A stretch of 64,000 bases of DNA from Undaria pinnatifida (lineage: Eukaryota; Sar; Phaeophyceae; Laminariales; Alariaceae), in contig JABAKD010000021.1 in assembly GCA_012845835.1 (NCBI GenBank), forward strand, positions 62,001-126,000, written 5' to 3'. A program made the position numbers and the translations under genes. This document shows, piece by piece, positions 4,657 through 47,110 of this stretch (its first letter is position 1; each line of letters opens with the position of its first letter). Below the pieces are notes generated by a model, which did no database searches, was not told the origin of the DNA, and saw only the letters and a list, made by a program, of their open reading frames with translations.

Positions 4657-4803
4657 TGTTATTCGGGAGGGGACACAGAGTGTCCCACGCACGTCTATCT
4701 ATTGAGCAGGTCCTCGGTGAGTACTCGCTTTCTTGGCCGTAGTAGAGAAGCAGCTTTATAATTTCCACATAGCCCCGGATAGCAACTGAGAGCCGAGGCG
4801 TAT
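4657..4803 (+). repeat. Left arm of a 10-kb-spaced inverted repeat
   Basis: The segment 4699-4803 is matched base for base in length (105 bp, with about ten substitutions) by the reverse complement of 14701-14805. Outside that core, TGTTATTCGGG at 4657-4667 is matched by CCCGAATAACA at 14824-14834, with a 17-bp length difference between. The similarity fades just beyond these points on both sides. The TG...CA ends resemble LTR termini. The opposite orientation means the pair is either two LTR fragments from separate insertions or terminal inverted repeats of a larger unit. Confidence 0.75.
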
Positions 4804-4809
4804 GCCTCG

Positions 4810-5660
4810 TTTTCGTTTCCCGACTACCCCTAATAGATAATGGCAACACATGATAGGAAAAAAGCCAATTTACTATCAAACCAGACAATTTGCAGGCCTT
4901 TCAAGGCCGTACCTTAACACTAGCCTACCCTGATGTGCCGCATATGGAGAAATATGGGAGGTTCGGAGAAACTCTGTTCTACAATCTAGACCATGTGTCG
5001 AAGACGCGGCTCCTCAAAACCCACTCCCACACCTCGAGCGGCCTGGCTATGGAGCCAGGAAAACGCGAAGAATAGCAGTTGAAGGAAACGCAGACCGTAC
5101 AACAAGGCAAACCACCCATAAAGATCCCGTCGCGTACCACCGATATGGCTGGGGGGGAACATAAAAGGCTCGACGGCAAACAAATCACAGAAAAGGCACC
5201 ATGGTGAGGCAAATCTTTGTTGAAAGAAAGGGGAATACAGGCGCTAATACAAGAGAGAAATCATGACAAATATCTCCCGCAGACCATTGGCATTGCAGGG
5301 GTTAGGTGGGAAAACGACAAATACACGAAATGGAAGGTGACACCAACTACAGACATGCGAGGGGGGGAAGTATTTAGCCGAAAAAATTAGGACAATTACA
5401 ACCCAAAAAAAATTAAAGATACACATAGTCACATATGTAGCCCTGTCCCAGGTTATGCGCGAACAGGGTCCCCTGCTCGCCCCCCGGCTCTGGGCTGAGA
5501 AGGGTGTCGGCAGGGCGAAATTCGACAAACACGAAAAGCCGGCAGTCCTGCGCCTCGGATAACGGCGTGAATACCCTGACCCTGGCCCGGCACAAGGCCG
5601 GGGTGGGCGCTGGCAGGACTAAGAAAACAATGGTTATAGCCGCCCCGCACCCAGTAGTAA
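4810..5660. other. Untranslated/3' region of element B, no gene seen
   Basis: The sequence between the inverted-repeat arm and the recognisable pol C-terminus has several overlapping open frames on the minus strand (5413-5794) but none with a domain I can name. It is probably the decayed 3' untranslated region or LTR of the minus-strand retroelement. No direct partner of this segment is visible upstream of gag, so an LTR pair cannot be demonstrated. Confidence 0.3.
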
Positions 5661-5666
5661 ATACGA

Positions 5667-6696
5667 TCAAAAAACCACGAACAACCCAAAGGAAAAAACA
5701 ACAAACCCCGTAACCCAGAAAAAAGGATGTGGAACGATCGAGGGGCGGCGGTGGCTTGAACGTCCACTGGCCACGGTCGCGCCTCGAGATTCATCTACGT
5801 TACGTTGGATCCCCCGAGGAAACGCGCTGGCGATGTGGACGTGCAGGCACCAAGAGCCTCGTACGGCTTCCGTCGAAATCGTGTAGCGCGCCGAGGGAAG
5901 AAGAAATTGAATCGTCCCCGGTTTGTCCAGAAAGCGAACCAGGTTAATCTTGTCCTTGGTTGTGCTCGCGCTGATTTTTCCAAGCCACCATAACCCATCG
6001 TCTCCCTTGTACCAAAAGTGGGCGACGTTAGGAAGCACCGTGTCATGGTAGCGGCGGAGCCAATCGGCGCGGGTAACACAAGCGTAGCCCCGCGTTAGAA
6101 AACGCTCCCCGTTGTTGCGGGAGAGCTCGCTTTATGCCACCCCGATCCGAATTCGGCGGTAGAGGGGGTTGGTGTGGTGGTGCTAGTCCGACGTGCTGGC
6201 CTAGTAACGCAAACTGTGGGGAAGGGAGAGGTGGAAGTCCATTTCCCGCTCCCAGGAAGGTTTGAGAGTCCCGCCCGATGCGTCTTGTATAGCACCTTGA
6301 TGATGCCATCTCACCGCCGGACTGACTGATGGCCGGTAATCAGCTCAAATTCCAGCCGTTGGAGGGTGTTTGAAAGACCGTCTTGAGTGACGTGGTACTG
6401 ACAGACGACATCGTATTGAGCATATACTGCGTCAGCCCCACCGGATGGTATTTGGGCGTGTCCCCGCTGTCGAGGGGGTTGGGGCAGGGATTTCAGCGTT
6501 CAATCATCACACGTCGACTAGCGTCCGAACCGGAAAGGTCGGAAGGGACGTTCAAATAGAGGAAGTTGCTCTCGATTATCGAGCCGGCCGGGGTCTCGGC
6601 GGCTGAGCAGGAACCGACTGCCAGGATCTTGAAAGGGCCCGTCCAGTTAATCGCGAGTTTGACCTTGAGCACCCCGGCGTCCGTGTTCGCCTTCAC
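5667..6696 (-). pseudogene. C-terminal part of gypsy-like pol (post-integrase domain)
   Basis: Continuation of the integrase-bearing pol reading frame region, broken into several frames. At 6493-6696 the segment VKLAINWTGPFKILAVG resembles the short barrel that follows the core in Ty3/gypsy integrases. At 5667-6038 the segment WYKGDDGLWWLGKIS looks like a small Tudor/SH3-like barrel of the kind that could tether integration complexes to chromatin, which is inference. Frames at 6043-6309 supply a low-complexity Pro/Thr-rich linker. At least three frameshifts separate these pieces, so no continuous protein is possible. Its position directly downstream of integrase on the same strand supports membership of the same element. 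Confidence 0.55.
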
Positions 6697-6699
6697 ACT

Positions 6700-7600
6700 C
6701 CGGCAGATGGTGGAGGTAGAGTTGTAAACTCATGCCACACCACCCTCATTGGAGTTTGGTGCCGGACGAAGCGCTTCCGTGAGGGCGGAGTTCTGCGGTT
6801 AACACGAGAAACTGTGAGGGCGTGGTGTGCGGGAACAACGTCGTTCGCGCGCTTTTGCCTGTCGATGACCAATTCGCAATAGGCCAGGTGGTCGCGGGCC
6901 AGACTCTGGTATCCCACGACGCCGGTGCGGTCGAAACCAGTCAGGGGGAGGCATGGGAGCCTGCGCACGTGGACCTCGTTCGTCGCCAGGCCCGTCGCCG
7001 TGCTGACATTGTTTTTGTAAGTAAATTCGACGCGAGGAAGATGCCAGTCCCAATCGTCTTGTCGCTCTTGGACGACCATATCCTTCATTCGGGCCATAGT
7101 GTGGTGTACTCACGCAACGCTCCTGTTACAGTTGGGATGGTAGGAGCTTGTAGCAAGCTTGCGCACGCCCAACAGCTGATATACAAATTGTGAAAGCTTG
7201 GAGCAGAACTGCAGGCCGTTGTCCGGGAGTATGGTGCGCGGGCACCCCTACAAGGGAATGTATTGGTTCACCAGAATATTGGCTATACCCTCCGCGGTGA
7301 TTTCAGCGGCGGTGACGAGAAACATGTCGGCCCGACGACTGAAGCAATCGGTGAACAGCAAGATGTAGGTGTTACCTTGTGACGTACCCGGAAGGGGGCC
7401 GAAGTAGTCAACACTTACATCGACACCTGGACCTTCCGGAGGAATGGAAAGTTTGGCCAGCGGACAATCAGCCGTGGGGGTTTCCGCGCTTGGCACTTCA
7501 AGCAGTGGCGAAGCCACCACCGGGTGCATATATTCATGCCAACCCACCAACAAATCCGCTCCAGCATGCGCAACGTGTGCGTTGTGCCAAGGTGGCAGGA
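6700..7600 (-). pseudogene. Ty3/gypsy-like integrase, catalytically broken
   Basis: Integrase would insert element cDNA into the host genome. The N-terminal zinc finger at 7493-7594 fits H-x4-H-x24-C-x2-C (HLGTTH through CLKC) but lies in a different frame from the core, so one frameshift separates them. The core begins VDYFGPLP, with the first catalytic Asp at 7407-7409. After an in-frame TAG at 7248-7250 the second Asp is in LPDNGLQF (7221-7223). The Glu expected after exactly 35 residues is Ala (GCG, plus-strand 7113-7115), and the next codon is TGA (7110-7112). Downstream, WDWHLPRVEFTYKNNV is typical of the end of gypsy integrase cores. The missing Glu and two stops make it non-functional. 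Family assignment is confident; activity is excluded on sequence. Confidence 0.88.
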
Positions 7601-8429
7601 GGCTGTTGAATGACAAGCTTGTATGATCCAAGAGTGCATGAGCAGGGGATCGCGGCGGTCGACGGGGTCGGCCACGGCCGCGGGATTCGCGGTGGGGTGT
7701 TGACACTCCCGGCAGATGGTCGAGGGGCGCCGCCGGGCCCGAATCCATATTCCACGGCAGGGTTGCATCACCGGTTGCTGTCACTGTTCGTCGGCGCGTG
7801 TTCGCCGACGGACGGGCTGGAGTGCCAAGCAGGTCAAAGACGGACACGGTTAAACCGGCGGTCGCGGTGGAATCCGCCTCCTGTATAGAACTCCTTGGTA
7901 GAGTATTCGGCTCTGCGATGGTCGTCGCTGCAGTCAGGGTTTCTGCGGAGCCCGTGCCGCCTCGGATGATTATGGCAGAAACCGAAGCAAAAACGGTGTC
8001 AGCGGCAGGCGAATTCGACCCGCGGCCGGTACAGCCTTCGAATATGACGACCGAGGCAGAAACACGAGCGACAACTATCCCCGGGGGAGCAGAAAGACCG
8101 TCAATCCTTATACGTGGCTCGTGTGTGCGAAAATCGTGAAATGCCTTAAAGGCGGGAGGGAGTCCATCCAAGACAGAATCTTCAGTGCGGGGCACGAATC
8201 CACCCAAGGCAGTGCTTTCGGCTCGGGGCCCACACAAAGCAGTGTTTTCGTTGGGAGGCACGACTCCACCCAAACCAACCTCTGGGATCGGCGAGGAGGT
8301 AGCTTGCAGCCCGCCGGCCCGTAAGAGGTAGATACTGCAATCTCCAACGGCGTTGGGGCTTTTCAACCCCACAGGGTGAAAGCTTGTCCAGCCACTGCGG
8401 TCGTACTCCGTGGCAGGCTCAGGCAAGCG
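7601..8429 (-). pseudogene. Pol linker between RNase H and integrase
   Basis: An open frame runs through this stretch (the ORF spans 7248-8486 in total) but its composition is unlike a folded polymerase domain. It is rich in Ser, Thr, Ala, Gly and Pro. It contains a short repeated motif around GLG/GGVVPPNE and GGFVPRTEDSVLD near 8180-8260 that looks like an internal duplication. Just upstream of the zinc finger the reading switches frame. I interpret it as the linker between RNase H and the integrase finger. No catalytic motif is visible in any frame. Confidence 0.4.
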
Positions 8430-8560
8430 GATTAGAAAAAGTCGGTGATACCATTGGCGCTGCCTTTGCGGTACTCGAGTGTGCAATCGAACGCCGTGAC
8501 GACTCCAAGCTACCGCTGGACTCGTGCATTTATTGTCGTTTCCTTACCAATGCTCTCCTG
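8430..8560 (-). pseudogene. C-terminal tail of RNase H
   Basis: RNase H removes the RNA strand during reverse transcription. Only its last 40 or so residues are recognisable: NARVQR, then an in-frame TAG where the family has Trp, then FDCTLEYRKGSANG at about 8450-8491. This block closes the RNase H domain of Ty3/gypsy polymerases just before the linker to integrase. A frameshift in a run of A (plus strand near 8435) separates it from the downstream frame carrying LPEPATEYDRSG. The RNase H active-site acids and all RT motifs that should precede this block are not found in the 240 bases before the NADAR segment, so most of RT-RNase H appears deleted or eroded beyond recognition. Confidence 0.65.
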
Positions 8561-8799
8561 TGCCTCATGGCCGAATGATATGCGGAACTTTGTTCCCCAA
8601 CGTACCCTCGGAGGCATTCGGGGCCCCAATACTTCTGGTCCCTAAATCTAGAGGGGTCCAGTGTGCATCTCCGAGTCGAGCGTTGCTCGACTGATGTACG
8701 CGATTTTCATAGTGAACGAAACGCCGTCCAGCGTCACAGTACCCCCGACAAAACAAGGGCCGTGTTCTGACAGCGCAAGGGAAGGGCCGACGCCGGAAG

Positions 8800-9529
8800 C
8801 TATATCCCAACCTTCACGGCTTTTTGTCGGCCATCACGTTTGAGAAAAAGGTCGGCAACTCCGAAGGGGAACCTTTGCGAGCGCTGGCCACTGTTAACGG
8901 CCCGGTCGCGGCGCGGACGAGATTTCTTGGCTCTTGAGTTCGCAGTGGAGGTGAAGAACCGACTAAGGGAGGCAGGGTATGCTGACCCGGTCTTACTGTC
9001 GCGAATAGCTTCGCGAACGGCAAAAAGTGCCTCACCGAGCATTTTTTTCCCTCAAATATCAATGGTTGTTGGCCCTGGGATCATCCGCCCGAATACCAAT
9101 GCCCCACGCTGGGGCCAGAAAGCTGGCTTCAGCCAAACGCTTGTTGTCAGAGCTCAAAAGGTGATTTTTCATCGTTTCATTCTGCGTGAATTTAGCTCCA
9201 GATAACACGGCATTTTGCTTCTCCCTGTCCCCAACGACGGAGTCAAAGTTGTGCACACCTCGACCGATGCGTTTGCGTGTGTTTGGACTAGGCCACGACA
9301 TGATGACCCCCACTGCTCGATGGTCTTGGAAAAGCTTGGTCTTTTCGGCCATCCTATACTGCTCCGCGCAAGAATATGGCGCGTCGTCCACGACAAATGA
9401 CGAAGGGGACCACGGTGGAAAATAGAATGGGGGCTGCCAGAACGATACCACTTTGTCCGGAAAGTTTTCAAGGGAAGGGTCAAAAGCCGTGTTGGAATTT
9501 GGGCGTGCAATATCCTCGACCGGGAACAC
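8800..9529 (-). pseudogene. NADAR (YbiA-like) domain inside the retroelement
   Basis: The ORF 9059-9529 (156 residues, starting MFPVEDIARP) is a clear NADAR-superfamily domain: residues 52-67 read YSCAEQYRMAEKTKLF, the EQYxMAxKA signature, followed by SPNTRKRIGRGV (81-92), the NKRLAEAS block and WGIGIRADDPRA (142-153). NADAR proteins are N-glycosidases. YbiA acts on riboflavin-pathway intermediates and related proteins are reported to remove ADP-ribose from guanine bases. After residue 156 there is a stop and a frame change at a run of seven A (plus-strand poly-T near 9043-9049). The expected C-terminal helix (LLGEAL-type, here MLGEALFAVREAIRDSKTG) continues in the next frame to about 8960. 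The acidic residue usually three before the WGxG Trp is Ala here (9113-9115, GCC where GAC would give Asp). Both lesions suggest it is inactive. It sits between the 77-residue repeats and RNase H on the same strand. Confidence 0.88.
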
Positions 9530-10110
9530 CAGGCCTCGCGAGCACGACGCGAATCCGAACCCGCGGTTTCTCGTTTCGGATCCTCTTCGCTGGTTGACGG
9601 GAAAACACGAGAATCCGCTCTAACTGCGCCCGAAAATGGTCAAAACCCGACGGTGCCAACCCGTCGGTAGCCTCGTTGGACATTTGGGTCTGCACCATCT
9701 CCTTCTGCAAACACCAGTTCCCGGTTTTTGGGCCTGCATTGTCCCCTTGTGTAAATATCAGGCTTCGGTAGAATGATGCGAGTCCGAACTCGCGGTTTGT
9801 TTGCGTCGAATTCTCGTCACTCGCTGGCGGAAGCTCGTAAGAACCCGCCCTCACTTCACCCGAAACAGAGTCCAACACCGACGGTGCCAACCCGTCCGTA
9901 GCCTCGTTGGGCATTTGGGCCTGCAATGTCCCCCTCTGGCGGCACCTGTCCTCGGCGTTTTGGGCCTGTAGTGTCCCCGTCAAGAGCACCAGGCCTCGGG
10001 AGCACGACGCGAGTCCCAACGCACGGTTTCTCGCATGGTAGCCTCTTCGTTCTTTGGCTTATATTTGCCAGAAACGGCTCTAACTGCGCCCGGGGAGACA
10101 GGGGCTCTGA
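9500..10110 (-). repeat. About 2.6 tandem copies of a 231-bp (77-codon) repeat
   Basis: Segments starting near 9527, 9759 and 9989 repeat the same order of motifs at a spacing of 230-232 bp. Examples are ACCAGGCCTCGGGAGCACGA and, further on, CCGTCGGTAGCCTCGTTGG (near 9660 and 9892). A period close to 231 keeps the minus-strand frame. The 179-residue ORF at 9480-10019 therefore contains two related blocks around NEATDGLAPS with different following sequence. This suggests amplification of a protein segment immediately N-terminal to the NADAR domain. Copies differ by about 20 percent. Confidence 0.8.
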
Positions 10111-10239: not shown

Positions 10240-11124
10240 TCAGCGTGCTAGAAGATTAAGCAGGGCCCATAGACCCTCTGGATGTCTTCTGGAGTAGGGC
10301 TCGGGCAGGTGGCAAATTGTTTTCACCCGAGAAGGCTCATTTTGGTTGGGCCTCTTGGAGAAGGGAGACGAGGTAGCAAATCTTGTCGGCTTCTCCTTGA
10401 TGGAAAAAAAAGACAGAGCGCCCGCTGCTATCGCGAGTAAACAACGGATCGAGCTTCGCAAGGGATCTCGGTGTTTTAGTTTTGGCCTGCCCACACCTCA
10501 AACCGACCGCCACCACGTGGCCAAACGAATGTGTTTGAGGGTCGGCCGTCCCACACCTCAAACCGACCGCCACCGCCTGGTCAGGGAGAGGCGAGGATGA
10601 ACCCGTTCGCGTAAAAAGGCGACGCACCGTCACCGCAGCTACATTGCTGCGGTGACTGCGCCATGAGAATCGTCAGCAGACGGCGTAGGCGCCCGTGGCC
10701 TCTTGACAGATGCAACTTGTGCTGCATTATTAGACATTCTAGCAACAGGTACACAAGCATCTTCTGAAACCAGAAGAGGTGTCCCCGACAGTGCTGTCGG
10801 CGGACAGGCTGGGTGTGCCATACCACCATCGAGCTGTCCATTGCTGGTACGGAATGTGCCAGGCTGGCGCGCGTTGGTATTTCCGCCCGGGTTATGGGTG
10901 GCTCCCAACCGCATTCCAGGAGCAGGAGCGGGGACGGGAGAGGCGGCGAGGCGGGATACCACCACGGTGATCCGACGTGTATGATATCGTTGTGACATTT
11001 TGCCAGGCCCTGATCCTGGTGGTACCTCTGCGATTGAACTGAATGATGACGATAGTTGTTCTTGTGGTTGTTCGGGCGAGAAGATTTGTCGTCTCGGCGT
11101 TAGCAAACGATGCGTGATTGCCAA
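10240..11124 (-). pseudogene. Gag-pol linker region, Pro/Ser-rich, no domain recognised
   Basis: Between the gag knuckle and the 77-residue repeats lie two open segments on the minus strand, 10639-11124 (161 residues, Pro/Ser/Ala-rich) and 10337-10633. Neither shows an aspartic-protease DTG/DSG motif or an RT YxDD motif in the frames I read. The 10490-10574 part contains a 60-bp tandem duplication that repeats the residues VAVGLRCG. Its position suggests it once encoded protease or a linker. The sequence alone does not show which. Confidence 0.3.
10490..10574. repeat. 60-bp direct duplication
   Basis: The block CCCACACCTCAAACCGACCG plus CCACC occurs at 10490-10514 and again at 10550-10574, exactly 60 bp apart, with related sequence between (GGCCTGC/GGCCGTC just before each). 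It is in frame (20 codons) with the minus-strand ORF. Confidence 0.85.
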
Positions 11125-12479
11125 CGTCGGTATGCGTCATCGTCGCCAAGTTGGCCAGGTTCAGGGTTCAAACAGCTGCTCGCATTAATTAAACGATGCC
11201 TACAATGCTTGAAGGAGTGGTTGTCTTCGTGGCAGTTGAGGCAAAGCTCCCGGTTTTCTCGGAGGGCATCAACGCGAGTGGAGGGTGAAAGGAGGCCGCT
11301 CCAGAGGAGAGGGTCGACTGTCTTGAACGAGGCACTAACGGCGAATACGTCTGCATAATTATGATCCTCTAGTGGCCAGCGGTTCGATGTCTGGTCAAGC
11401 CTAGGATCAGATGAATCATCGATGGGCATGACAGTTGGATGATGGCTCGATCCCGTCTGCGACGAAAGCGACTGGTGCGGCACTCGGCCCTGGCCGCGCC
11501 TATGATCGGCGGGCCGGGGCTCCGACGGGGGGGATGGCCGCGCTCCCATCGAAGAAACAGGTTGGGATTTTTTTTATTTGCTTTTGCCGGCAGGCGTGTT
11601 GTTGTGCGCCAAGCCACTATAAGCTCTCCACATAGCATCTAACAAGGCGAATGGCCGCGGGTGCGTTGCCTTCGAACCAGGGTACAACGTCAAGGTAGAC
11701 ATGAGTATCGGAAACTTCTTATTACCACCATCCGAACCACCTCCAACACCACATCCGTTCCCGGAGAGAAACCACGCGCACCCCCCGTGACTGTCGATAC
11801 CAGCACGTTGACCTCCCAACTGAAAAAAAGGCGTGCCGTTACACACTCCAAACGTATGCAACTTTGTATAGCCCTCCCCCATGTCGACCGGGTCGAAGTG
11901 CGTCACAAGCAAGCGCAGCAGGAGAGTGAAGGCCTCAGGCCCCGATGCGCCGTCATCCATTGCTCTCGACACCTGTACGAACCCGTCGTCGAGCATGGTG
12001 GTTATGCGGGCGGTCGTGTGCTTGTCAGGCGTTTTGAATGCCACTTTTAGCGGGTGGGTCCAACCGGTTACCCGCGTGGGCGCTCGTGCGCTCTCTGTGC
12101 AACGGTCATCGCAGTGTATTAGTATGTCAGACATTGCAGACCCAACCGAATGTGTAAGTTGCTGTGTGCCGTCAGACTTGTTCAAAGAAGACGAGAACCG
12201 AAGCACAGAGATGTGGGATACGTCTTTGTAGGAAAGCTTAACGCAAGCAAGCCGAACCGAGTCATCAAGCGTGGCTTTATCTGTAGCCACGGCAGTGGCA
12301 ATCTCGGCGGTACACGCGCGGGCCAAATCCGAAGAAATAGGCTTGGTGTGGACACCCGACACAATTAGTTTGCTCAGCCGTTCAGCGGAGGAAGCAATAT
12401 CCACCAGGGAAGGAACTACTTCCCTCTTGCCTGCTACCCCACGGTCACCTCGCCGTGGTCCGTGCTCGAGCCCGAACAC
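11100..12479 (-). pseudogene. Gag core with CCHC knuckle (element B)
   Basis: Structural gag of the gypsy-like element. One frame runs from 12479 to 11100 with a single in-frame TAA at 11574-11576. The first 301 residues (from MFGLEHGPRR) contain a hydrophobic, helix-rich capsid-like part, a Gly-rich stretch (about residues 228-258) and TLYPGSKATHPRPFALLDAM near the end. After the stop the frame continues to the knuckle CLNCHEDNHSFKHC, encoded at 11202-11243 as an exact C-x2-C-x4-H-x4-C. It lies upstream of the pol remnants on the same strand, as expected for gag. The TAA could in principle be a readthrough site like those between gag and pol in some viruses. It sits inside gag rather than at the gag-pol border, so decay is likelier. 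Confidence 0.75.
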
Positions 12480-12499
12480 GAGCGGGAGGAGGTGGACGA

Positions 12500-14203
12500 G
12501 TCATCCCACGCTGAACGACCTCGTTCGATGTTCCAATGCCCTCCGGCGCCTCCCCCAGAGCTGCGGCCATCACCCCGGTTGGTTCGGTCCTACTTGCTTC
12601 ATTGGCGGCGTCCTGAGCCACCACCATTACCCGACGCGCCAACCTCACTTCCACCACCGCTGCTGCCACCCCCGCGGCGGTGGTGGGGGTTGCCACCCCC
12701 ATTATTTTTGCCGCCACCCCCGGAGCCACCGCTCCCACGGGTGCGGTCCCCGCGGTCGCGGCTGCTGCTGCCTCGCTGTTTACCGCGGTTGCTTTCCGCA
12801 GACTCTTCCTCCGGGATCGGCCAGAAGACGGGGTCGGGGGCCTCGTCGTGGGCCATCCGCGGGGATTTGACGAGGGCAAGGGTCGAGGCGGCTCTCGCCT
12901 TCCCGGCATAGAACGTACAGTCCATGCGAACCCACGCCGCCTACACTAAAAGGGGGTCCTCGTGCCGTAACGGCCTCCACTGAAAGGGTGCCCTCGTGCC
13001 GTAACGCCGGCCTTTCTGACGTGAGCAGCGGAGGCCGTTTCCACCACCGCAGTCGCCAACGCTGAGGAAAACTCTATCCTCGGTGCAGACACCATGCACG
13101 CGACGCTGCCCTTGAAAAAGGCGTGGTTCCCGGGCCGTGGTCGCTGGGAAGCGACACTCTGCGGGCGGGGCGAATACCAGGGGGCCGCGATAGCTCCTAC
13201 CGCAGCCGCACTAGCTCGGCGCGCCCTGTCCAGCAACAGGGGCGCCTCTCGAGTAACGGCCTTCGCCTGCTCGACGTCCTCGCCATGGCGATGTCGGCGT
13301 GCCTCGCACTGGACTACAGTCGCGTGTGCGTCGTGGAGCGCTCGCTGAGCTCGCGTCACCTTAGAAGCTAAGGCCGAGTGGGTGTCGGCTTGGATGCTCG
13401 GGTCCTACCGCAGCCGCACTGGCTCGGCGCGCCCTGTCCAGCAACAGGGACGCCTCTCGCGTAACGGCCTTCGCCTGCTCGACGTCCTCGTCATGGCGAT
13501 GTTGGCGTGCCTCGCGCTGGACTACGATCGCGTGTGCGTCGTGGAGCGCTCGCTGAGCTCGCGTCACCTTAGAAGCTAAGGTCGAGTGGGTGTCGGCTTG
13601 GATGCTCCGGTCCCGCGAGCTCTGGGGTGGTGCTCTGTTGAGCGCGGAGAGTCCAGGTGGCGGCGGTGGTGCTCTGTCGAGCTCGGGGAGACCAGCTGGA
13701 GGCGTTCCCCCGGGGCTGGCGACAGCTGGTGCCGAGACGCCCCCGAGCCTGGTGGAGGATGATCCCGGTTCCTCCTTGTGAGCAATCGAGTCGACCCGGT
13801 CGGCTGGGGTGCCCTGACGGTGCCCCCTCTTGTTGTCCTTATTGTCACCTCCGGAAACTTCGTCCGGAGGTCGTCTCCGTCTCGAGTCATGCAATCCCCC
13901 GTGTGAGTCCGGGCGTGATGTCGAGCGCTCCCCTCCTGTCTCTTGGGCCTCCGGGTTGGGGCGTGTGGCGGACCGCAGCCTGCCCGAGAAACCTGCATCG
14001 TCGCTGGTAGACATGTGGTTGTCTGTATGGAGGGCGGCGGGAGGGAGGGGGAACGACAGACACACGTTAAGGAGCGCTGAAGGTCGATATATTGTCGCGG
14101 TGTCCTCTCTGCAAGTGGTGTCGAAATCTGAGTGCCAGAAAATAGCAAGGTGTGAGCCTTGGCACTGTTCAGCATCAGGGGGCGATGGCAGTATCAACGC
14201 CAA
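12500..14203 (-). pseudogene. N-terminal gag/ORF1 region: coiled coil and Gly-rich segment
   Basis: Minus-strand open segments 13361-14203 (280 residues), 12946-13359 and 12599-12925 form the upstream part of the same element. The first is hydrophilic and Pro/Ser-rich, then enters a long Ala/Arg/Glu helical stretch (TRAQRALHDAHAIVVQREAR and following) that should form a coiled coil. The 12599-12925 part is a Gly/Ser-rich RGG-like low-complexity region, which often contacts RNA. A 208-bp tandem duplication (13195-13610) shifted the frame: position 13359 plus 208 falls exactly in the frame of the 14203 ORF, so the duplication alone explains that break. A 36-bp near-duplication at 12949-13010 is a second local expansion. 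Whether this was one protein with the gag core is inferred from strand and order. Confidence 0.5.
13195..13610. repeat. 208-bp tandem duplication, two copies
   Basis: Copy 1 is 13195-13402 and copy 2 is 13403-13610. They differ at only about a dozen positions across TCCTACCGCAGCCGCACT at the start and TTAGAAGCTAAGG...TTGGATGCTC at the end. Because 208 is not a multiple of three, the duplication is frame-breaking for the gag ORF that crosses it. Confidence 0.95.
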
Positions 14204-14409
14204 CTAGCAGCATAAACGGAAGGAAGTGTTGGCGCTCACGGCATGATAAAGAATGGCGCCCACTCAAGACGGAGGATGTAAGGAGCGTCGAAACAACCGC
14301 TGTAAGGAATGCATCTTCCACTAAGACCGCTACACCAGCACAGCGCTCAGGCCGCCCGTAGGGTATACCGGTAAGGCCTGATCAACCGCAATAAAAGAGG
14401 TCATAATAG

Positions 14410-14700
14410 GCAGCACTGACCCTAGCTGCAGCGAAGGGGGGAGAGCACAGTAAAGGTACGACTGCACCCAACGAATCAAAACAAGCAGCATTTAACCTAG
14501 ATGTGGGGGGGGTAGCACAGGAATGCGTCCCCAAATTCCCACGCCCATCGAACCAAAACAGGCAACATTTAACTTAGGTGCATTGTAGGGGTGGGGTAGC
14601 ACGGTAAATGGTCGCCCAAGAAGCCCACCCATCGCACCAAACATGCAGCATTTGCCCTAGGCTCAAGGGGGGCATAGTAAAGGGTTGCACCAAGAAGCCC
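14410..14700. repeat. Four imperfect copies of a 75-83-bp repeat
   Basis: Units start at about 14410, 14485, 14562 and 14645. Each has a GCAGCATTTAACCTAG-like start, a G-rich run, then AGCACRGTAAAG and CCAAGAAGCCCA-like ends. They abut the right arm of the inverted repeat and lie upstream of gag, so they may be internal repeats of the element's 5' leader or LTR. Confidence 0.75.
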
Positions 14701-14834
14701 ATGCGCCTCGGCTCTCAGTTGTTATCCGGGGCTCTGTGGAAAATATAAAGCTGCTTCTTTACTACGGCTAAGAAAGTGAGTTCTCACCGAGGACCTGCTC
14801 AATAGGCAGACCCGCAGGACCCACCCGAATAACA
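14701..14834 (-). repeat. Right arm of the 10-kb-spaced inverted repeat
   Basis: The core 14701-14805 is the reverse complement of 4699-4803. CCCGAATAACA at 14824-14834 is the counterpart of TGTTATTCGGG at 4657. In minus orientation this arm lies upstream of gag, the position of a 5' LTR. No same-orientation copy is found at the 3' end of the element. Confidence 0.75.
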
Positions 14835-17010: not shown

Positions 17011-17778
17011 TAGGGAGCATGGGCCCTAACTATTGGGAACCGCCCACCATAGTAGGTGCCCTGTACCGTCTGCTACTGCTACTGCTACCGTACACTGTAC
17101 TCTCTGCTACTGTACCCTCTGCTACTGCTATCGTACCCTCTACTACTGTATCCTTCGCTCAATTCGCCGCATTCAGCTTTATAGTATATCAACAACCGGG
17201 AGCGAGTGGAGGAGGTTATGCGGTGGTATTTCACGGGCAAATTGGTTGTAGAGTAAATCGAGAGTGTATAACGTCTTCCAGGTCCGATACCAATAACGCC
17301 CGTGATGTATTTGGAAATGTTTTCGTTGTGCATGACTATGAAAATATGCCCACAACGAATTTGCTGCAACGAATTTTCTGGGAAGATTCTTGTTGGAAAA
17401 TTCCGGCAACATTATTGCATACCGCGGTAGAAATCAATGGGCTTTCTTCGTAGATCGCGATGTGTCCTATAAACTGGGGGCAGACGCCTTTCTTTCCTTT
17501 TGCGTGGGCAACCATCGAGGTGCATTAGAGTAGCACTACCGTGCGCGCCCGCACGTGCGCCACCCCTCACAGAACTTCACCCGTGCTGCTGTACGGCAGT
17601 CTTTCACACGCGGTTGCTATCTGCCGCTGGGACACGGGAATGCGCGTGCCAGAAAAGGACGGTAGCGGAAAACGCGAGACACATGCATGATGAGCAAAAC
17701 AAGGGCACGCGTGTGGCGACGCACACAACCAAGGACGAGAGCACGAATTTATGACGACAAACGCGAAGAAGACACCGC
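17011..17778. other. No supported gene
   Basis: A short CTGCTACTGTACC imperfect repeat lies at 17067-17155. The plus-strand frame 17019-17453 begins inside that repeat and then becomes unremarkable. No domain is recognised. Confidence 0.35.
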
Positions 17779-18282
<504 letters not shown>

Positions 18283-20160
18283 CCGCCACAGCACAGCCGA
18301 GAGAGGGCCCTCCCGGCCTTGCTGTGGTGACACAGCCGCCACTACCTCGTGTCCGTGCGTGACAGGATTGATGTAGAACGTTTGGAGGGGGAGGAAGTGA
18401 TATCGTCGTGTGGGGCGGGTGGGTTGTTTCAGGCAATGAAAACTGGCTTGCTGCTGGCGGGATGAAGGATCAACTTCAACCAAAGAGCCCCCCTCGCAGG
18501 ATTTTTATCGCCTTGTGTTGTGATCCGGGATCGTTCGGGTTCATTCTATCAGCACACCACCAGACTATCGCCATAAAAATGCAATGCGTCCATCGCTGAA
18601 GATATTTCCAATATTTCTGTTTCTTTTGAATCGCCGTGCTCAGCTTATAAGAGTTCCTAAAGCTGGGAGCAGTGAGGCCAGTGTGATAGCCAGGATTCTG
18701 GCTGGATGCAAGCCGCGCGGTCCGTGCTGCACCGAACACGGGAGGGCAGGTACCTGCCCTCCGAATCTTCAGAAGAAATGCCGACAAGTGAGTTGTTAGT
18801 AGTGGTGCCCCCGTAGCCGTAATGCCCGTTTGGTAGTGCCGGTTGTCCGCTATAATGCATGTGAAAAGACTTGTCGTACATACAGTGTACTATGGTGGTG
18901 GTCCATCCACAGTATCGGTTGAGTCGTGTAGTCTGCCTGCCCGCTATGGCGCAATACGGCACCCGTGAAATCACCTAGTGCACAGTTCGGAGTTCAGTGA
19001 TGCCTCGATAGTGCCGGTCGAGTAGGGCCGGTTGCACGTGATATTTCCTTTGGCATAGTTTGGGGGGTTACAATAAGGGTGACCCCGTGAGAGACCAGGT
19101 TCCATATAGTGCTGGGAGCTAACCAAAATAAGCATGCCCAATCAAGTATATCTGGCTTACGACTGATAACAAGCATAATCAAGGCAGCCATGTCGCGCTT
19201 ATTTGCTTATTTGAGTTTTAGCGGTTTTCGTGTAGTGAACCGAACCACATACTGTACCTGGTACAAAACAGGGGTACGATGGCTTTTAAGATGTCTATTG
19301 AAAACTCTATACGAGAAAACGGTGTGTTGCTTTAATATAAGCGTAATCGTGTGGGTTCTACTTAGGACAGCCATGCTGAAATTGAGTGTAGTTATATATA
19401 TATTGATTCTAGCATGCACACACTGAACGCCGAAAACACAGGGGCCATAAGAGGTATCACTTACCTTTGGCCGATTTTGGTTTTTGGTGGGACGGAGGGG
19501 GGGCGGGGGCAAAATATTCCAACGTCAGCCATTTGGGTACAACTGCCATATAGTCGAACAACCATGCCTGGTTATGTGCAATCGAACGACCATGCCTGGT
19601 TGTGTATGTATAGGTAGACTAATAGAACATGACCGCTTGGAAAGGTCGCATGTAGGCCTTCGGTGAAATAGTCGCAGGACAGGCTCCCACTACTCTGAAA
19701 TTGACGATTTCCTTGGGGGAAATAAACCATGGGCCAATGGCTGCGCTTTTGCCACACGCATGTGCCTGTAGACACTGCTTGTTTACTTTGTTCAACCTTA
19801 TATCACCACGTGTACGTCCCTCCGCAGACAGCAAGTGCTGTGGCCGAAAAATACCTGAACCTGTCGAAGCTCGCGTCCACTTTGCGAAATATTGCTCGCG
19901 TTCCTGTATCTTCAAACCCTGGTGTTTGTCAAAGCGTACCGCGTGCCATATGGGGAAAAGAGGATCGCGACGTGGATTGGAAGCCTTTTCGTTGTTTTCA
20001 GAGTCTCACCCCAACACCCTCTTGCTCTTACCTTATCCCCAATGACAACGTTGTCGTGTGTCGTGAGATGCTGTCGGAACACCACGTACCCTAACCCATG
20101 AAATAAGGGTGGTGTGTGTTGTGAAAGGGTAGCAAGTGTCCTTGGCACGACATGGGATTA
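18283..20160. other. No supported gene; small duplications only
   Basis: Open frames here are short and lack motifs. A 28-bp near-duplication containing CGAACAACCATGCCTGGTT lies at 19553-19605. The frame 19729-20094 has a moderately protein-like middle (ASAVAEKYLNLSKLASTLRN) without a known domain. It leads directly into the family described at 20165-20250. Confidence 0.35.
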
Positions 20161-21070: not shown

Positions 21071-21300
21071 CTTCCACAGCTGTCAGATTTTGTCCCCCTC
21101 AGAAACAGGTTTCATAGTTTCCGCGCACAGACTGCCTAACATCACCCTGTGGACCCTGGTAGCTACACTGTAGTTGCAAGGGGAGTCGCCGACCTATATC
21201 CTTAATGAGGACACACAACCCGTAATACGCGCGATCGGAGTATCACACACAGCTTGCAAAGATGAGTTTCGACAAAATATTCGATCTCACAGCTGGAGTC
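21071..21300 (+). repeat. Dispersed repeat family R, long copy
   Basis: Two-part repeat. The first part contains TTTTGTCCCCCTCAGAAAC and ATAGTTTCCGCGCACAGACT. The second part (from GTAGCTACACTGTAGTTG) runs through GGGGAGTCGCCGACCTATAT, the CGCGCGATCGGAGTATCACA block and CGATCTCACAGCTGGAGT. A second long copy is at 37316-37550. Minus-strand copies of only the second part are at 38836-38935, 40741-40887 and 45682-45825. No coding capacity; probably a non-autonomous element. Confidence 0.85.
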
Positions 21301-21584
21301 CATTGTTATTTTTATTATATACATATTTAAATTGTAAAAAAAATCCAAAACAAACCCAAAACAAAATAAAACAAAACAAATAACAAAACAAAACAAAACC
21401 AAAAGCGACTCACCCCCCTACGGTACGCAGGTTTGGTCCATCCCACCTTAGGGTTAGCTGAAACTTTGTTCTGTTTTGTGAAATATTATCAGGTGCCATG
21501 CACGCCGACAGGGAAGAAAGGACAAACGTGCCCAACCCTACCCCTAATAATAACAACGATCTTCACCCTCAAATAGACACGGTC

Positions 21585-37315: not shown

Positions 37316-37550
37316 CCTTCACAGCTGTCAGGTTTTGTCCCCCTCAGAAACGGGTTTTATAGTTTCCGCGCACAGACTGACTAAAATCATCTTGTTGACC
37401 CTGATAGCTACACTGTAGTTGTAAGGGGAGTCGCCGACCTATATCCTTAATGAGGACACACAACTCGTGATGCGCGCGATCGGAGTATCACACACAGCTT
37501 GCAAAGATGAGTTTCGACGAAATCTTCGATCTCACAGCTGGAGTGTATTT
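37316..37550 (+). repeat. Dispersed repeat family R, second long copy
   Basis: About 90 percent identical by eye to 21071-21300 over both parts, ending CACAGCTGGAGTGTATTTT. It abuts the C-tract block, whose fragments belong to the same family. Confidence 0.85.
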
Positions 37551-38540: not shown

Positions 38541-40255
38541 GACAAAAAAGGTCATACCAGGAATTTACTGCATATATTTTTGTCTAAAACTCGCTCGAGC
38601 CTGAAATTCTCAAGTACCAAATTCTTTGTTCAGTGATATCGCGTACTGCTAATATTCCATCGACCAGGCGAGAATGGTCTACAGCAACAAGTAGCAACAC
38701 TATTATGATAGCATTCGAGGAATTGAAAAACGAAGGCAGCGACACCGTGTTTTCACGCCTAGAACACCGTCAGCAAGTCTCTCCACGATCATTATACACA
38801 CAGAGACACGGTCGGTCTGCGAGCCTCGGATCTAGATATTATAAAAATAAAAGTACACTTCACCTGCTGTGAGATCGAAGATTTTGTCGAAACTCATATT
38901 TGCGAGCTGTGTGTGATACTCCGATCGCGCGTATTATATTATGGTATCATGCATGTAGTAGCAGAAGCTGGCTCAGTGCGCGCCTGTCAGTTGCAACGTA
39001 GAGAACATGCAGCAAACCTTTGGTCATCCGTCTTCTGGCCCTGGGCGCTTCGTTGAGTTGAAACGCCAAGAAACACACTCGAAACGTCTCTTCGCGGCTA
39101 GACTAGAGGGTCAGTCTGCGTGGGCTCGGATTTTCCGATCGAAACATATATGATGAAGCTCGGAATCGGATTCAGGCAAGAAACGAAGAAACGGAGGAAA
39201 CGGCAGAAGTAGTAAGTGGTCCACTGTTAGTTTTTTTTTTTTTTTTTTTATCCTCCGGCGGATGGGGAAAAATAAAGCTTTAGCTCACCACACTTCCACT
39301 GTTAGTCTATATCAATATCTTGGCATTACTTTACGTTCTACACGCGTAACAGCTTTTACTCTCTATCGAATATTGAAACGAACATGTCGAAGTGCTGCCC
39401 TGCTCTGCCCAGAGCATGGGTGCGGGCGAATGCCGGTACACATGCGGAGCCCTTGTGTACCTTTATATTGTTTCCCTTCGCGTCCTTGCTCTCAGTTGCC
39501 TAGCTCTTTGCACTTTCGTAGCCCGATCGTTGTTGGTATATCAAGTACAGACGCGATCTCCACCGTTGTGGGCTTCATCATTTTGGTTTGTTTCGAATAG
39601 CCTCGGGGTCGATCCCCATTCCAATTGGATGCTTTGTTACCATCCTTGTGTTGTCGTATGATCTGCATCTGCGCGTATCCAGGGTTGCCTAATCTTATGG
39701 AGTGCTCTCCATAGACTAGATTTATAGGCTTTAATAAGGCGTGACACGATTTCATTTCCTTTATATGACCTGCTTAATGTGCCATACCATAGTGCCGTTT
39801 CTCGTTTAGGTGGTTCTCAGTCACAAGTCGATGTTTTCATGGTGGAAGCATTGCACACCGGATCAGTGAGTGTGCGTGTGTTTTTTCCATGACGTACAAT
39901 AAATATCTGGTTTGGGATGATGTTTCGATAAATGAAAGATTGGAGGATACAGGAGAATCGATGCCATGAGCCGAGAAGGTAGGCGACCTACCCAGCAATG
40001 CCACCCTGCATCCCGACGGCATACCATCACAATTAAAATTCGTCAGTGCTCGCGCGTGATTTAAAGATGTTCGCATGAACATAATAATCAAACTTAGGTG
40101 CTCCGCTAAAGTAGCAAAGGGCGATCAAAATTTACCGCAGAAATGCCATTGTCTTGCGAATGACTCCCTACCTTGTTCCAAAACGTAGAAAACAAAACAT
40201 GTTGGCGCAGCGTGACAATTAATTTGATGGTGAACCAACCCAAGGTAAAAAGGAG
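38541..40255. other. No supported gene; contains a short family R copy
   Basis: The minus-strand copy of the family R second part is at 38836-38935. A poly-T run of about 20 lies near 39231-39249, flanked by CCACTGTTAG on both sides (39222 and 39296). Short frames lack domains. Confidence 0.4.
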
Positions 40256-40259
40256 GGGG

Positions 40260-40740
40260 GAGGTGTACCCGTTTCATGCATAGCCGTTGTCGTATGACTG
40301 TATACCCTCGCATCCCTGCTATGCCGGGACGGAGCACGTCGGGTTTTCACCGACCAGGCAGACATTGAGTGCACCAAAGTGCGAAGCGCCGTGAGGTGTT
40401 CGGCGAGTCGCATGAAGGGTGAACTGCATTCCACCAAAAATCGCTTGTGAGAGGCGGACTTCCATATTATATGGATGACAGGTTCAATGAGTTAATTTTA
40501 TTTCGGCATGGCCACTTCCAGAGACAGCAATGGGCGTACCATGTAACTACCTCGTGGGCGCACTACAAAAAGCACTGGGTGATACGATTATTCCCCTCGT
40601 GCGGAGTAATAATTCACCACCACGCACAAGTGATCTAATTCGACCGCCAGCTTGATCGACCGTAAAAACAAAACAGTCTAGCTCATGCAATGAGCGGCGT
40701 GTATTATATTGCCGTTGCCAACCGACGCCAACCCAACCTA
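40260..40740 (+). repeat. Dispersed 500-bp repeat U, copy 1
   Basis: Matches 49425-49945 along its length, for example GCCGGGACGGAGCACGTCGG, TTTTCACCGACCAGGCAGAC, ATGGCCACTTCCAGAGACAG and CCAACCGACGCCAACCCAAC. A partial third copy lies at 40920-41045. No coding capacity. Solo LTR or non-autonomous element are both possible. Confidence 0.85.
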
Positions 40741-40887
40741 TATATTATGAAAATTAAAACACTCCAGCTGTGAGATCAAGTATTTTGTCGAAACTCATCT
40801 TTGCAAGCTGTGTGTGATACTCCGATCGCGCGTATTACGGGTTGTGTGTCCTCATTAAGGATATAGGTTGGCGACTCCCCTTGCATC
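40741..40887 (-). repeat. Family R, second part, minus strand
   Basis: Carries the reverse complement of the CGCGCGATCGGAGTATCACA block and ends at GGCGACTCCCCTTGCA. It lies exactly between the full and the partial copies of repeat U. Confidence 0.85.
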
Positions 40888-40919
40888 TATATATAGCATA
40901 GGCCAGGGGTGAGCAGATG

Positions 40920-43656: not shown

Positions 43657-43697
43657 ACCTAACCCTAACCCTAACCTTAACTCTAACCCCTAACCCT
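43657..43697. repeat. Interstitial telomeric tract 3
   Basis: CCTAACCCTAACCCTAACC with variants TTAACT and CTAACCCC, again entered from ACGGAA and left into TTCGTGGAAGC. Confidence 0.95.
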
Positions 43698-44344
43698 TCG
43701 TGGAAGCTTCAGTGGAAGCTCTCGTGGAAGTTACTTCCATGGAAGCTTTCGTGGAAGTTACTTCCATGGAAGCTTTCGTGGAAGCTTACGTGAAAGCTTT
43801 CGTGGAAGCTTTCGTGGAAGCTTTCGTGGAAGTTGCTTCCATGGTAACTTTCGTGGAAGCTTTCGTGGAAGTTACTTCCATGGGATCTTTCGTGGAAGTT
43901 ACTTCCATGGAAGCTTTCGTGGAAGTTACTTCCATGGAAGCTTTCGTGGAAGCTTACGTGAAAGCTTTCGTGGAAGCTTTCGTGGAAGCTTTCGTGGAAG
44001 TTGCTTCCATGGTAACTTTCGTGGAAGCTTTCGTGGAAGTTACTTCCATGGGATCTTTCGTGGAAGTTACTTCCATGGAAGCTTCCGTGGAAGCTGAAGC
44101 TTCCGTGGAAGCTTTCGTGGAAGCTACTTCCATGGAAGCTTTCGCGAACGATTTTGTTTTTGCGTGGAAGCTTTCATATCTTCCATGTAAACTTCCTCGG
44201 AAGCTTCCGTGGAAGCTACTTCCATGGAAGCTTTCGCGAAAGATTTCGTTTTTGCGTGGAAGCTTCATATCTTTCATGTAAACTTCCACGAAAGCTTCCA
44301 TGAAAGCTTTCAAGCTTTTATGAGCTTCCACGCAAAACGCAAGT

Positions 44345-47110
44345 AGTGCAGGAGATCGGGTTTGTTCAATGCGTTTCTTCCTGACAGAGCTTGTCAGCGA
44401 AGCAACTATGCACTGCCTCAACTCGTTGAAAACAGCAGCAGTTAATGTTTTTTGCTATATTTTGGGTCTTTCGACCATGAGGTTGTTGATTAGGTTGACA
44501 CTGTGTGTCTGGCGGTACGAAGGTTTGGTCAGCGTACCGATTGCTGAACTCGCTGACACTGGGGTTAATAGCTCAACTCATTGGAACACCTATATATGAT
44601 GGCATGTTTTGGGTTGAGACCTATTAATAGAGCGTGGGGTCGTTGAACGGGTTGGCCTTTGTTGATGATAGATTTTCTGACGTGTGCTGCGATGAAGGTA
44701 TCAGAGTTTGGTCAAGGTATTTTTTACCGATAGAGCTCCTCCACTTGGGAATGATCTACTTCAAATAATTGGAATACACTCGTAAGTCATGTTTGGGTAT
44801 GGTTGTTTGTTTGAATACGATGAACGCCCACTCAGGTGCAGGTGGCTGACCGACGACATTCTTCAGAGGCTAGCACATAATCGTCGTGATTCGAGCTTGA
44901 GCACCACTGGTGATGAACTAGACGGTAGCGGATCACAAGACATGGGCTACCCTTGGGCCAGAAAAATGTACCTGGTATAGTGCAATGAACTGTACACAGT
45001 TCAGATGCGGATGAGAAGAGTGATTTCGGTGAGCAATCACTTCTCTTCTGCAAGCGCTCCTCTTCCGCATCGCCTCGTTCTCGAGGTACACAGTTAAGTT
45101 AGCTTGTACGGCCACATCCACCATACGCGATACAAAGGCCAATCTACGTGACCTCGTTCAGCACTTGAATCCTATGCACGTGACCCCAGTGACACGTTAC
45201 TTGGTGGAATATCGTGTCAAATGTGTGTCTTCTTCTATACTCAAAGCAAGCGACATTCAACCCGTGGTTGGACAGCTTACCCGAGCTTGCATAACGACCT
45301 GATCGCGCGGAGATTTACTCATCCAGTGCTCTCCATACACTTGATGACTATGTAATGAATATCTCTTTTGTGAAGTGGATCTCTTACGGGTCCTACCTTT
45401 CAATAGTCCTTCTTACATGAAGAAATCACATCAAATGTGTTCATCCTTAACCACCTCGTTACGCCTAGTCGAAAGCGTAAGTTTCAATCAAATATCGTGC
45501 CAGAGGGTTTCTTACTTTACTGCTCGGCTTGCTTGTACTGCACATTAATCTTTCGACGATCGTTCCAGCGCCCACCCCCTGTCGGCCGGTCATGTTTTCT
45601 CTAATAACGTTGCGCATGCCAGCTCTGACATTACGGTGGACGTCATGCTTGAAACGTCTGCTCAAATCTCCGAAATATAGTCTATATTATAAAAGTTGAA
45701 ATACACTCCAGCTGTGAGATCGAATATTTTTCGAAACTCATCTTTGCAAGCTGTGTGCGATACTCCGACCGCGCGTATTACGAGTTGTGTGTCCTCATTA
45801 GACTAAAGGATATAGGTCGGCGGCTTAATATATATATCGCTTCTGACTGCTTCTGTTCGAGTTCGGCAACACATGCTTCATGCTTTCGTTGTCTCTTTAT
45901 TGTCTAGCTTTCGTGCGACTAAGACCGTTCCTGCATCTGTCTACTCCTTGAGACGCTTCTTAAGGCAGCACTTAAGGTAGAAGTGATGCCATGCCGCCCG
46001 TTGGCGGTGAAGTCCTGGTGTCATACCTCATAACATTCCCTTCGGGAAGGGGTTGACTTGGTACTCTGGGGTCATCGCAAGCCGACGAGCGGTAGCACAA
46101 TCATTCCGACGACACGCGCAGGTTCGAGCTACATCAGTAGTGGTTTTGCACCTGATGTAGGCTTTGGTTACACCAGGTATGAAGTCCGACGACGTGTGTT
46201 CGATGGTTGCTTTGGGCGTGTCAACGCTATCGTGGTTCGATCTCCTGCCGCTGTGCACCAGACACACGCGCATACCCCGTGGCTACTGGCAAATGGCGAG
46301 ATATTAGAGCGCGACTGCCGTTGTACCGCTGCTGCTGCTGTTCTGCTTGCTGCTGTTCCGCTGTAATACTGAAGTGTGTTACTGATTACTTTGGTTGAGC
46401 GGTTAATTTTGCGCAAAAAAAAACACCGATGTTCTTCTCGATCGTATGCCCAAGATGACAGCACACACCCCACTCATATATACACAGAAGCGCACAGACA
46501 TACACACAGAAGCACCGTCCGTGCATGTCACCAAGGAATGCGGGCGTTGCTAGTCGTCGATTGCTAGGTCGTCGCAGACAACAGAGATGGTAAACCAATT
46601 GACTGATGATTGATCTACGGCGGCCGGGAAAAACACGGGTCGAGTTTGAATACCGAAATGCGAGAAGGGAGCGGGCCACATAATAAAAAAAAATGTGGGA
46701 TTTTTCAATGGGTCTGCTCGGTTAACAGCGAGGCGGAACGCTACCCCTTAAAAATAGAAGCACATCAGTTAGGTCGGATGTCTAGAGCACCACCACGGAG
46801 CCCCGCCGCGATCGAGACGTGCGTCGCAATGTACCGATGGGCGCCTTGCTTGCCCCACGGCCGAAAGCACCACAACAAAACCTCGGCCGCCAGAGAACAC
46901 CAAGCCATAAAAACAAAGTGCATATTGTTTTTGCATAAACATGTGTACGTATGGAACCCGTACCGCTCCCCCCCCGCACTCTCCCCCCCCCCGCCCATTT
47001 GAAGTAGAAATAGCGCTGAGCGAGTGGGAAACAAAATACTAAAAGGCCTTCCATCGCTGATCAATCCAACTAGTTTCTCCTGTCTGATCACGATATCAGC
47101 AAGAGCCCAG
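44345..47110. other. No supported gene; diverged repeats and a family R copy
   Basis: An imperfect tandem pair of about 190 bp around TTTGGTCA...TACCGAT lies at 44523 and 44708. The family R minus-strand copy is at 45682-45825. The frame 46028-46366 carries no domain. A CAC/ACA-rich tract lies at 46460-46515. Confidence 0.4.
45682..45825 (-). repeat. Family R, second part, minus strand
   Basis: Matches 40741-40887 with a small insertion (GACTAA) before AGGATATAGGTCGGCG. Confidence 0.85.

Follow-up and report, generated by a model that had tools for sequence, protein, structure and literature searches.

NADAR domains at the N-terminus of a Ty3/Gypsy Pol polyprotein have been described in the brown alga Ectocarpus (Gypsy-12_Ec32; Genome Biol. 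2025, PMC12477816), and the same paper states that Tx1 long interspersed nuclear elements (LINEs) of the oyster Crassostrea gigas have a NADAR-like ORF1. We analyzed a NADAR-carrying Gypsy-like element of the kelp Undaria pinnatifida, located in a stretch of 64,000 nucleotides (contig JABAKD010000021.1, positions 62,001 to 126,000 of the forward strand; hereafter the window). An original prediction, made from the letters alone, had recognized the NADAR domain within a Gypsy-like retroelement and considered this layout unfamiliar; on the latter point it was overtaken by the Ectocarpus elements, published in September 2025 (PMC12477816). Taken together, our results make it probable that a brown-algal Ty3/Gypsy lineage encodes NADAR at the N-terminus of Pol, where it would act as an eraser of ADP-ribose, and that the window holds an old non-autonomous derivative of this lineage, with NADAR carried along as a dead passenger.

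In the window, the element reads on the minus strand in the order leader, gag, tandem repeats, NADAR, RNase H remnant, integrase zinc finger, integrase core and 3′ long terminal repeat (LTR; Table 1). Pfam NADAR (PF08719) matched the frame window:9062-9619:- with 82.8 bits for a cut-off of 35.1, over residues 60-183 and profile positions 2-140 of 163. This is the profile check that the prediction had asked for, and it bears out the NADAR signature; the three peptide motifs quoted at that time all lie in this frame, and the gag knuckle, NADAR and the RNase H and integrase remnants are indeed on one strand. The C-terminal NADAR helix GKKMLGEALFAVREAIRDS follows just downstream in a different frame. 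The domain of the window copy is therefore whole but frame-broken.

We then considered the whole U. pinnatifida genome (511,146,479 bases, 68 contigs). An IUPAC pattern for CAEQ[FY]MMAEK gave 623 matches with at most 2 mismatches, and the reversed-pattern control gave 0. Of 1,454 NADAR candidates 150 were scored, all 150 being above the Pfam cut-off; 9 of these 150 sit in an open frame of 2,473 amino acids (aa; family I) and 5 in one of 2,371 aa (family II), neither frame containing a stop. The NADAR of a family I copy, L004, reached 176.9 bits (cut-off 35.1; profile 3-163 of 163) and those of family II 171-172 bits (profile 1-163), a complete domain being present in both intact families. In L004, the gag CCHC knuckle is at 12061257 and the Pol frame at 12061677-12069095, with NADAR at 12062898-12063347, the protease motif LLDTGS at 12063687 and the reverse transcriptase (RT) motif YLDDV at 12065187. 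Pfam detected RVT_1 (E 1.2e-27), RT_RNaseH (E 3.7e-31) and H2C2 (E 1.8e-12), as well as rve (E 2.1e-4) and Chromo (E 0.039) under their cut-offs. Read from these pieces, the order in L004 is gag zinc knuckle, NADAR, protease, RT, RNase H, integrase and a sub-threshold chromodomain, so that the autonomous family I shows the protease - RT - RNase H - integrase order of Ty3/Gypsy elements. L004 is bounded by direct, identical LTRs of 267 bp with TGTT...CACA ends and by a 4-bp TATA on each side within AT-rich surroundings, that is, by an LTR pair with a target-site duplication; the identity of the LTRs indicates a recent insertion. In families I and II alike, NADAR stands ahead of the same protease-start motif, EHGPCL..G..T.DD.SFTT.

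These copies bear directly on a first alternative, that a single-copy host NADAR gene was captured by, or inserted into, the retroelement. Stramenopiles do have NADAR genes, for instance Phytophthora (8bau), but the 623 motif matches for 0 in the control, the 430 matches to a deletion junction described below, the presence of NADAR and Pol domains in one open frame and the second family that also combines NADAR with RT leave this explanation a negligible probability. The original prediction had held NADAR to be a gene of the element, to be verified by looking in the host genome for intact elements with gag, NADAR, RT and integrase together, and had named full-length relatives devoid of NADAR, together with a match to a single-copy host gene with introns, as what would speak against it. 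Such intact elements were found, NADAR is present in the full-length relatives and the motif recurs hundreds of times. What has to be amended is the status of the window copy, which is a decayed RT-less derivative with a broken NADAR frame.

In comparison with L004, the window copy lost approximately 2.1 kb from the protease start to the middle of RNase H (protease core, RT and RNase H start). No RT was detected among the 18 element reading frames scanned with Pfam, a subset of the frames of the interval, and the comparison with the intact copy shows that RT was deleted along with the protease core; because of this deletion, we classed the window copy as a non-autonomous derivative and not as an autonomous element. 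Window positions 8300-9530 had 39 other genome matches at 80-85% identity, none of them covering fewer than 1,191 of the 1,231 bases; 40 of 1,132 candidates were scored. Of 10 derivative loci read, among them the window copy, 9 showed by pattern the junction peptide VTLDDVSFT/MKIAYISRATLD or a near variant, and 10/10 carried the junction 33-mer with 0-3 mismatches; all 5 intact-family pieces and 30 family I loci showed at least 10 mismatches to it. Genome-wide, this 33-mer matched 430 times (at most 3 mismatches; reversed-pattern control 0). A common junction with 430 matches indicates a single deletion event amplified hundreds of times. All LTR matches at the fetched ends of derivative copies were direct in orientation and, in the derivative copy L039, the LTRs differ at 12 of 267 sites (Kimura two-parameter distance 0.0465) and are flanked by a 4-bp CTAG duplication. 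Direct LTRs and this duplication identify the derivative copies as products of LTR retrotransposition, for which autonomous elements presumably supplied the enzymes. We also considered a new layout in which NADAR replaces RT, and rejected it: both are present in the intact copy, and a single deletion is seen in the window family. Among the matches listed, a large share of the NADAR and junction sites lies on contig C30, perhaps a repeat-rich chromosome.

A first protein search retrieved 199 proteins at E ≤1e-3 among 311 candidates, with identities up to 81%, and Pfam NADAR was present in 116 of the 120 proteins listed from it. Many of the relatives read have the same upstream repeats and the same downstream tail as the window element, and we therefore regard these protein relatives as copies of one element. 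In the 121 retained proteins, the last helix was out of frame in 20 and in frame in 9 by pattern, with P0101 added by eye; the others stop short of this helix or fit neither pattern. The NADAR piece gave 1 match to longer proteins among 1,280 candidates and the integrase piece 11 among 81. Five proteins (P0044, P0091, P0110, P0112 and P0117) start or end in MGSEMCIRDS, LSLIHI, LLYTSPSPRDRG or similar, which we take to be Illumina adapter read-through of transcriptome assemblies; these ends may hint at transcription of the element.

The structure of the intact NADAR was predicted for family I. A single-sequence model had a predicted local distance difference test (pLDDT) score of 40.7, and remodelling from 37 aligned sequences (34 of 80 bacterial loci, one old copy and both intact families) gave a mean pLDDT of 95 and a predicted template-modelling (TM) score, pTM, of 0.88. 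Two PDB entries matched this model at E ≤0.001, the Phytophthora nicotianae NADAR with ADP-ribose (8bau, TM 0.88) and Escherichia coli YbiA (2b3w, TM 0.79). The ADP-ribose contacts in the P. nicotianae enzyme include E43, K50, E125, D130 and W133 (PMC11543638). With residue correspondence taken by eye from the alignments, the equivalent E27, K34, E107, D112 and W115 of family I are invariant in 37/37 sequences, and R61 and W71 (R79 and W89 in Phytophthora) are conserved in at least 90% of them; the positions of Phytophthora Y84, D86 and R93 hold other residues in family I, also by eye. The catalytic Glu, Lys and Glu, equivalent to E43, K50 and E125, are thus present in both intact families. 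In the window copy, columns otherwise conserved carry M30 to R, W71 to G and D112 to A (family I numbering), and E27, K34, E107 and W115 are retained. The W71 to G change is frequent in related copies (G in 68/114, W in 35/114). With frame-breaking indels and altered invariant residues, the window copy no longer has an intact NADAR/YbiA frame.

To separate decay from selection, we compared derivative NADARs with that of family I. Frame-breaking indels were observed in 10/10 derivative copies: 9/10 share a 1-bp deletion at nucleotide (nt) 403, and 8/10 have 1, 2 or 5 extra bases at nt 276-284, the segment between the two being the out-of-frame part in copies that have both. Singleton sites in the derivative were spread over codon positions 1/2/3 as 28/42/45, with no bias (p 0.12), and differences fixed in the derivative as 18/12/36 (p 0.0008), the two patterns being different (p 0.029). 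Since the fixed sites are biased and the singletons even, NADAR was constrained before, and neutral after, the derivative copies arose; NADAR is dead in the derivative, window copy included. Between families I and II, the proportions of nonsynonymous and synonymous differences in NADAR were pN 0.374 and pS 0.762, with synonymous sites saturated, compared with pN 0.159 and pS 0.778 for RT-RNase H; NADAR differences by codon position were 65/50/92 (p 0.0014). By these comparisons, NADAR shows purifying selection between the intact families.

Several observations weigh against this picture of a selected enzyme and its dead derivative. An LTR pair was found in only one of the 4 intact copies with ends fetched (L004), the 3 others showing none in the stretches taken, and the ends of the 5 derivative copies fetched had LTR matches on both sides in 2, on one side in 2 and on neither in 1. 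The insertion at nt 276-284 may be recurrent rather than inherited, and differences fixed in the derivative may be older than the deletion itself. The derivative was amplified although its copies are now without a working NADAR, so that NADAR is dispensable in cis, although action in trans is possible. In addition, NADAR evolves faster than RT between families I and II (identity of 49% versus 78% for RT-RNase H), and an old copy, L075, has a dN/dS (ratio of nonsynonymous to synonymous rates) of 0.50 relative to family I; for these two reasons the constraint on NADAR is moderate. This faster evolution, together with the altered Y84, D86 and R93 positions, would also fit a non-catalytic NADAR retained in Pol as a nucleic-acid-binding or structural module. 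We consider this alternative rather improbable, given active-site residues that are invariant in the 37 sequences and kept by both intact families.

Under the preferred reading, a putative ADP-ribosyl hydrolase of the bacterial NADAR (YbiA) type is encoded at the Pol N-terminus, ahead of protease and RT. An intact element would make it as part of Pol, and NADAR would hence enter the virus-like particle together with RT. There, it would strip ADP-ribose from guanine bases of the element RNA or cDNA, where such adducts, being either damage or a putative host mark, would otherwise stall reverse transcription or leave the element open to control by the host. The RT-less derivative would be copied in trans by autonomous elements with similar LTRs. 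NADARs reversed guanosine ADP-ribosylation on RNA, which the tested macrodomain and ARH-like enzymes did not (PMC11833690), and NADARs cleave ADP-ribose off guanine in DNA (PMC11125620, PMC11543638). Cleaning of the element RNA or cDNA is the likeliest role, because NADARs remove guanine ADP-ribose from both RNA and DNA; a function against an ADP-ribosylation defence, or in the repair of element nucleic acid, would be plausible. NADARs have also been described as acting on riboflavin intermediates, and viral ones possibly on soluble ADP-ribose derivatives (PMC9503650), which would be consistent with a free metabolite as the substrate, be it an intermediate of the riboflavin pathway, NAD or an ADP-ribose signal. 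This alternative deserves some weight but is unlikely: the fusion to Pol puts NADAR beside RNA, RT and integrase, and the NADARs assayed cleave guanine-linked ADP-ribose on DNA and RNA. Overall, a predicted nucleic-acid de-ADP-ribosylase under selection in the Pol of recent inserts suggests that RNA or DNA ADP-ribosylation may restrain brown-algal retroelements; we know of no host enzyme for this modification, no search aimed at it having been made. A kelp with an identical-LTR copy is a system for testing such restraint, and the RT-less derivative provides a natural control, the same NADAR being both selected and unselected in one genome.

The closest relatives of the element NADARs found were bacterial, with up to 61% identity (Nannocystis), and bacterial blastp matches are likewise reported for the Ectocarpus element NADAR (PMC12477816). 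No relatives were found in viral_contigs, nor in phages by megablast. We built a NADAR tree of 49 rows, of which 8 are NADARs of the elements, 36 are bacterial loci out of 80 (the best 80 of 229 by likeness to family I), 3 are from phages and 2 from plasmids. Family I formed a group (93/89) with Myxococcota and Planctomycetota, outside which family II fell; a single clade of both families was not rejected (approximately unbiased test, p-AU 0.193). The same protease-start motif behind both NADARs favors one capture, or a replacement in place. It is conceivable, though we judge it improbable, that kelp Gypsy elements gained bacterial NADARs repeatedly, or swapped them within a conserved Pol, because the host ADP-ribosylates guanines of element RNA or cDNA and a changing eraser is needed. 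If true, a multicellular eukaryote and its retrotransposons would be engaged in an arms race over ADP-ribosylation.

The features of the window element are collected in Table 1.

Table 1. Features of the NADAR-carrying element in the window (coordinates counted from the first letter of the window).
Feature	Coordinates	Strand	Evidence
3′ LTR	4657..4919	-	4919-4666 aligns to positions 1-254 of the 267-bp LTR of L004, 71%, element orientation
Integrase core and C-terminal part, frame-broken	6397..7502	-	tblastn with P0123, P0126, P0129: 66-74% identity
Integrase H2C2 zinc-binding domain	7454..7669	-	Pfam PF17921, E 6.9e-11, within 7418-7780
RNase H remnant, N-terminus gone	8435..8704	-	tblastn with P0127, 51%
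Deletion-junction 33-mer	8684..8716	-	protease N-terminus fused to mid RNase H; peptide VTLDGVSFT/MKIAYISRATLD
NADAR domain	8995..9442	-	PF08719, E 4.4e-23; 9442-9071 in frame, last helix 9051-8995 in other frame
Tandem repeats of ~230 bp upstream of NADAR	9498..10092	-	self-BLAST, 73-74%; repeats D3, D5
Gag region, frame-broken	11103..14203	-	motif; tblastx matches
5′ leader, remains of 84-bp repeat array	14326..14661	-	BLASTN to L033, L034 (array long there)
Related-LTR fragment in opposite orientation, 5′ edge	14700..14818	+	79% to intact LTR; inverted to 4693-4804 at 91%

The G+C content is 0.573 in the element block and 0.492 in the remaining window. At the 3′ LTR edge, TGTTATTCGG lies on the plus strand at 4657, which places the end of the element at approximately this position. 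The integrase core spans 7502-6795, with frames switching near 6795; the H2C2 segment is 69-85% identical to most relatives tried, P0132 having 46% over a longer stretch. The protein that revealed the RNase H remnant, P0127, itself matches Pfam RT_RNaseH (E 4.6e-14). The CCHC zinc knuckle CLNCHEDNHSFKHC is at 11243-11202 on the minus strand, and the intact copy has the counterpart CLNCHEDTHSLRNC in its gag frame. The long 5′ leader of L004 contains at least 15 tandem units of 84 bp, together with a 102-bp repeat (L034:90-1500, L033:1-487; L053:3523-3714). By matched positions, the leader of L006 is approximately 0.9 kb shorter.

At the 5′ edge, the window copy's own 5′ LTR was not found in the window, which has an inverted LTR fragment there; this copy therefore shows a 3′ LTR only and no pair in the same orientation. 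The 112-bp inverted arms (4693-4804 and 14700-14811, 91%) and the lack of RT in this copy could point to a Ginger-like DNA transposon, one that combines a Gypsy-type integrase with terminal inverted repeats. This explanation is very improbable, since the direct 267-bp LTRs of the intact relative contain the arm, the LTRs of RT-less relatives are direct where found, one pair having a 4-bp duplication, and the inverted end is shared by none of the 5 derivative copies with ends fetched. We thus rejected a Ginger-like transposon, for which shared terminal inverted repeats would be expected. The fragment at the 5′ edge is not the window element's own 5′ LTR, and the inverted arm is either a piece of LTR left by another insertion or the product of a local rearrangement.

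No Rfam family exceeded its gathering score, and no host gene was recognised in 10 of the 150 window open reading frames (ORFs), the only match being a sub-threshold one to V-ATPase_G. We observed a minisatellite-like region at 43687-44281 with long coding-like short repeats in several frames (FVEVTSMEAFVEA / SFHGSFHGS) and long simple triplet repeats at 17567-18504 that read, depending on the frame, as poly-Y, poly-L, poly-T, poly-S or poly-V. Copies of a dispersed 70-150-bp repeat occur in both orientations at 85-95% identity (21171-21321, 37416-37549, 38840-38936, 40739-40889 and 45727-45800).

Non-autonomous LTR elements with internal deletions that are amplified in trans are known, such as large retrotransposon derivatives (LARDs) and BARE2-like elements. 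In comparison, the Undaria derivative retains gag, a dead NADAR and integrase remains, and has no RT. The predicted fold and the active-site residues of the Undaria NADAR are like those of the P. nicotianae and E. coli enzymes, with sequence identities of 29% to 8bau and 26% to 2b3w by structural alignment; unlike these, the Undaria NADAR is fused inside a retrotransposon polyprotein. The nearest functional parallel that we found is an orchid Ty3/Gypsy lineage with an AlkB N6-methyladenosine (m6A) RNA demethylase (PMC9289625), that is, a Gypsy element with an acquired nucleic-acid demodification enzyme, active in vitro. The orchid elements differ in that the enzyme is another one and, as described there, is encoded in an additional ORF and not at the Pol N-terminus (PMC9289625). 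The C. gigas Tx1 LINEs are also retroelements with NADAR, but of the non-LTR type. Among the papers listed by full-text searches of open-licence PubMed Central, we found no report of the layout in Undaria, nor of the RT-less derivative. The comparison with the Ectocarpus lineage is by description only: the Ectocarpus NADAR-Gypsy has a post-integrase chromodomain, whose Undaria counterpart is a sub-threshold match, and the Undaria elements differ by their host, by two families with 49%-identical NADARs and by an RT-less derivative with 430 junction matches. Overall, the layout is already known from Ectocarpus, to which the present analysis adds its occurrence in a kelp, a second family whose NADAR is divergent, and a large derivative devoid of RT.
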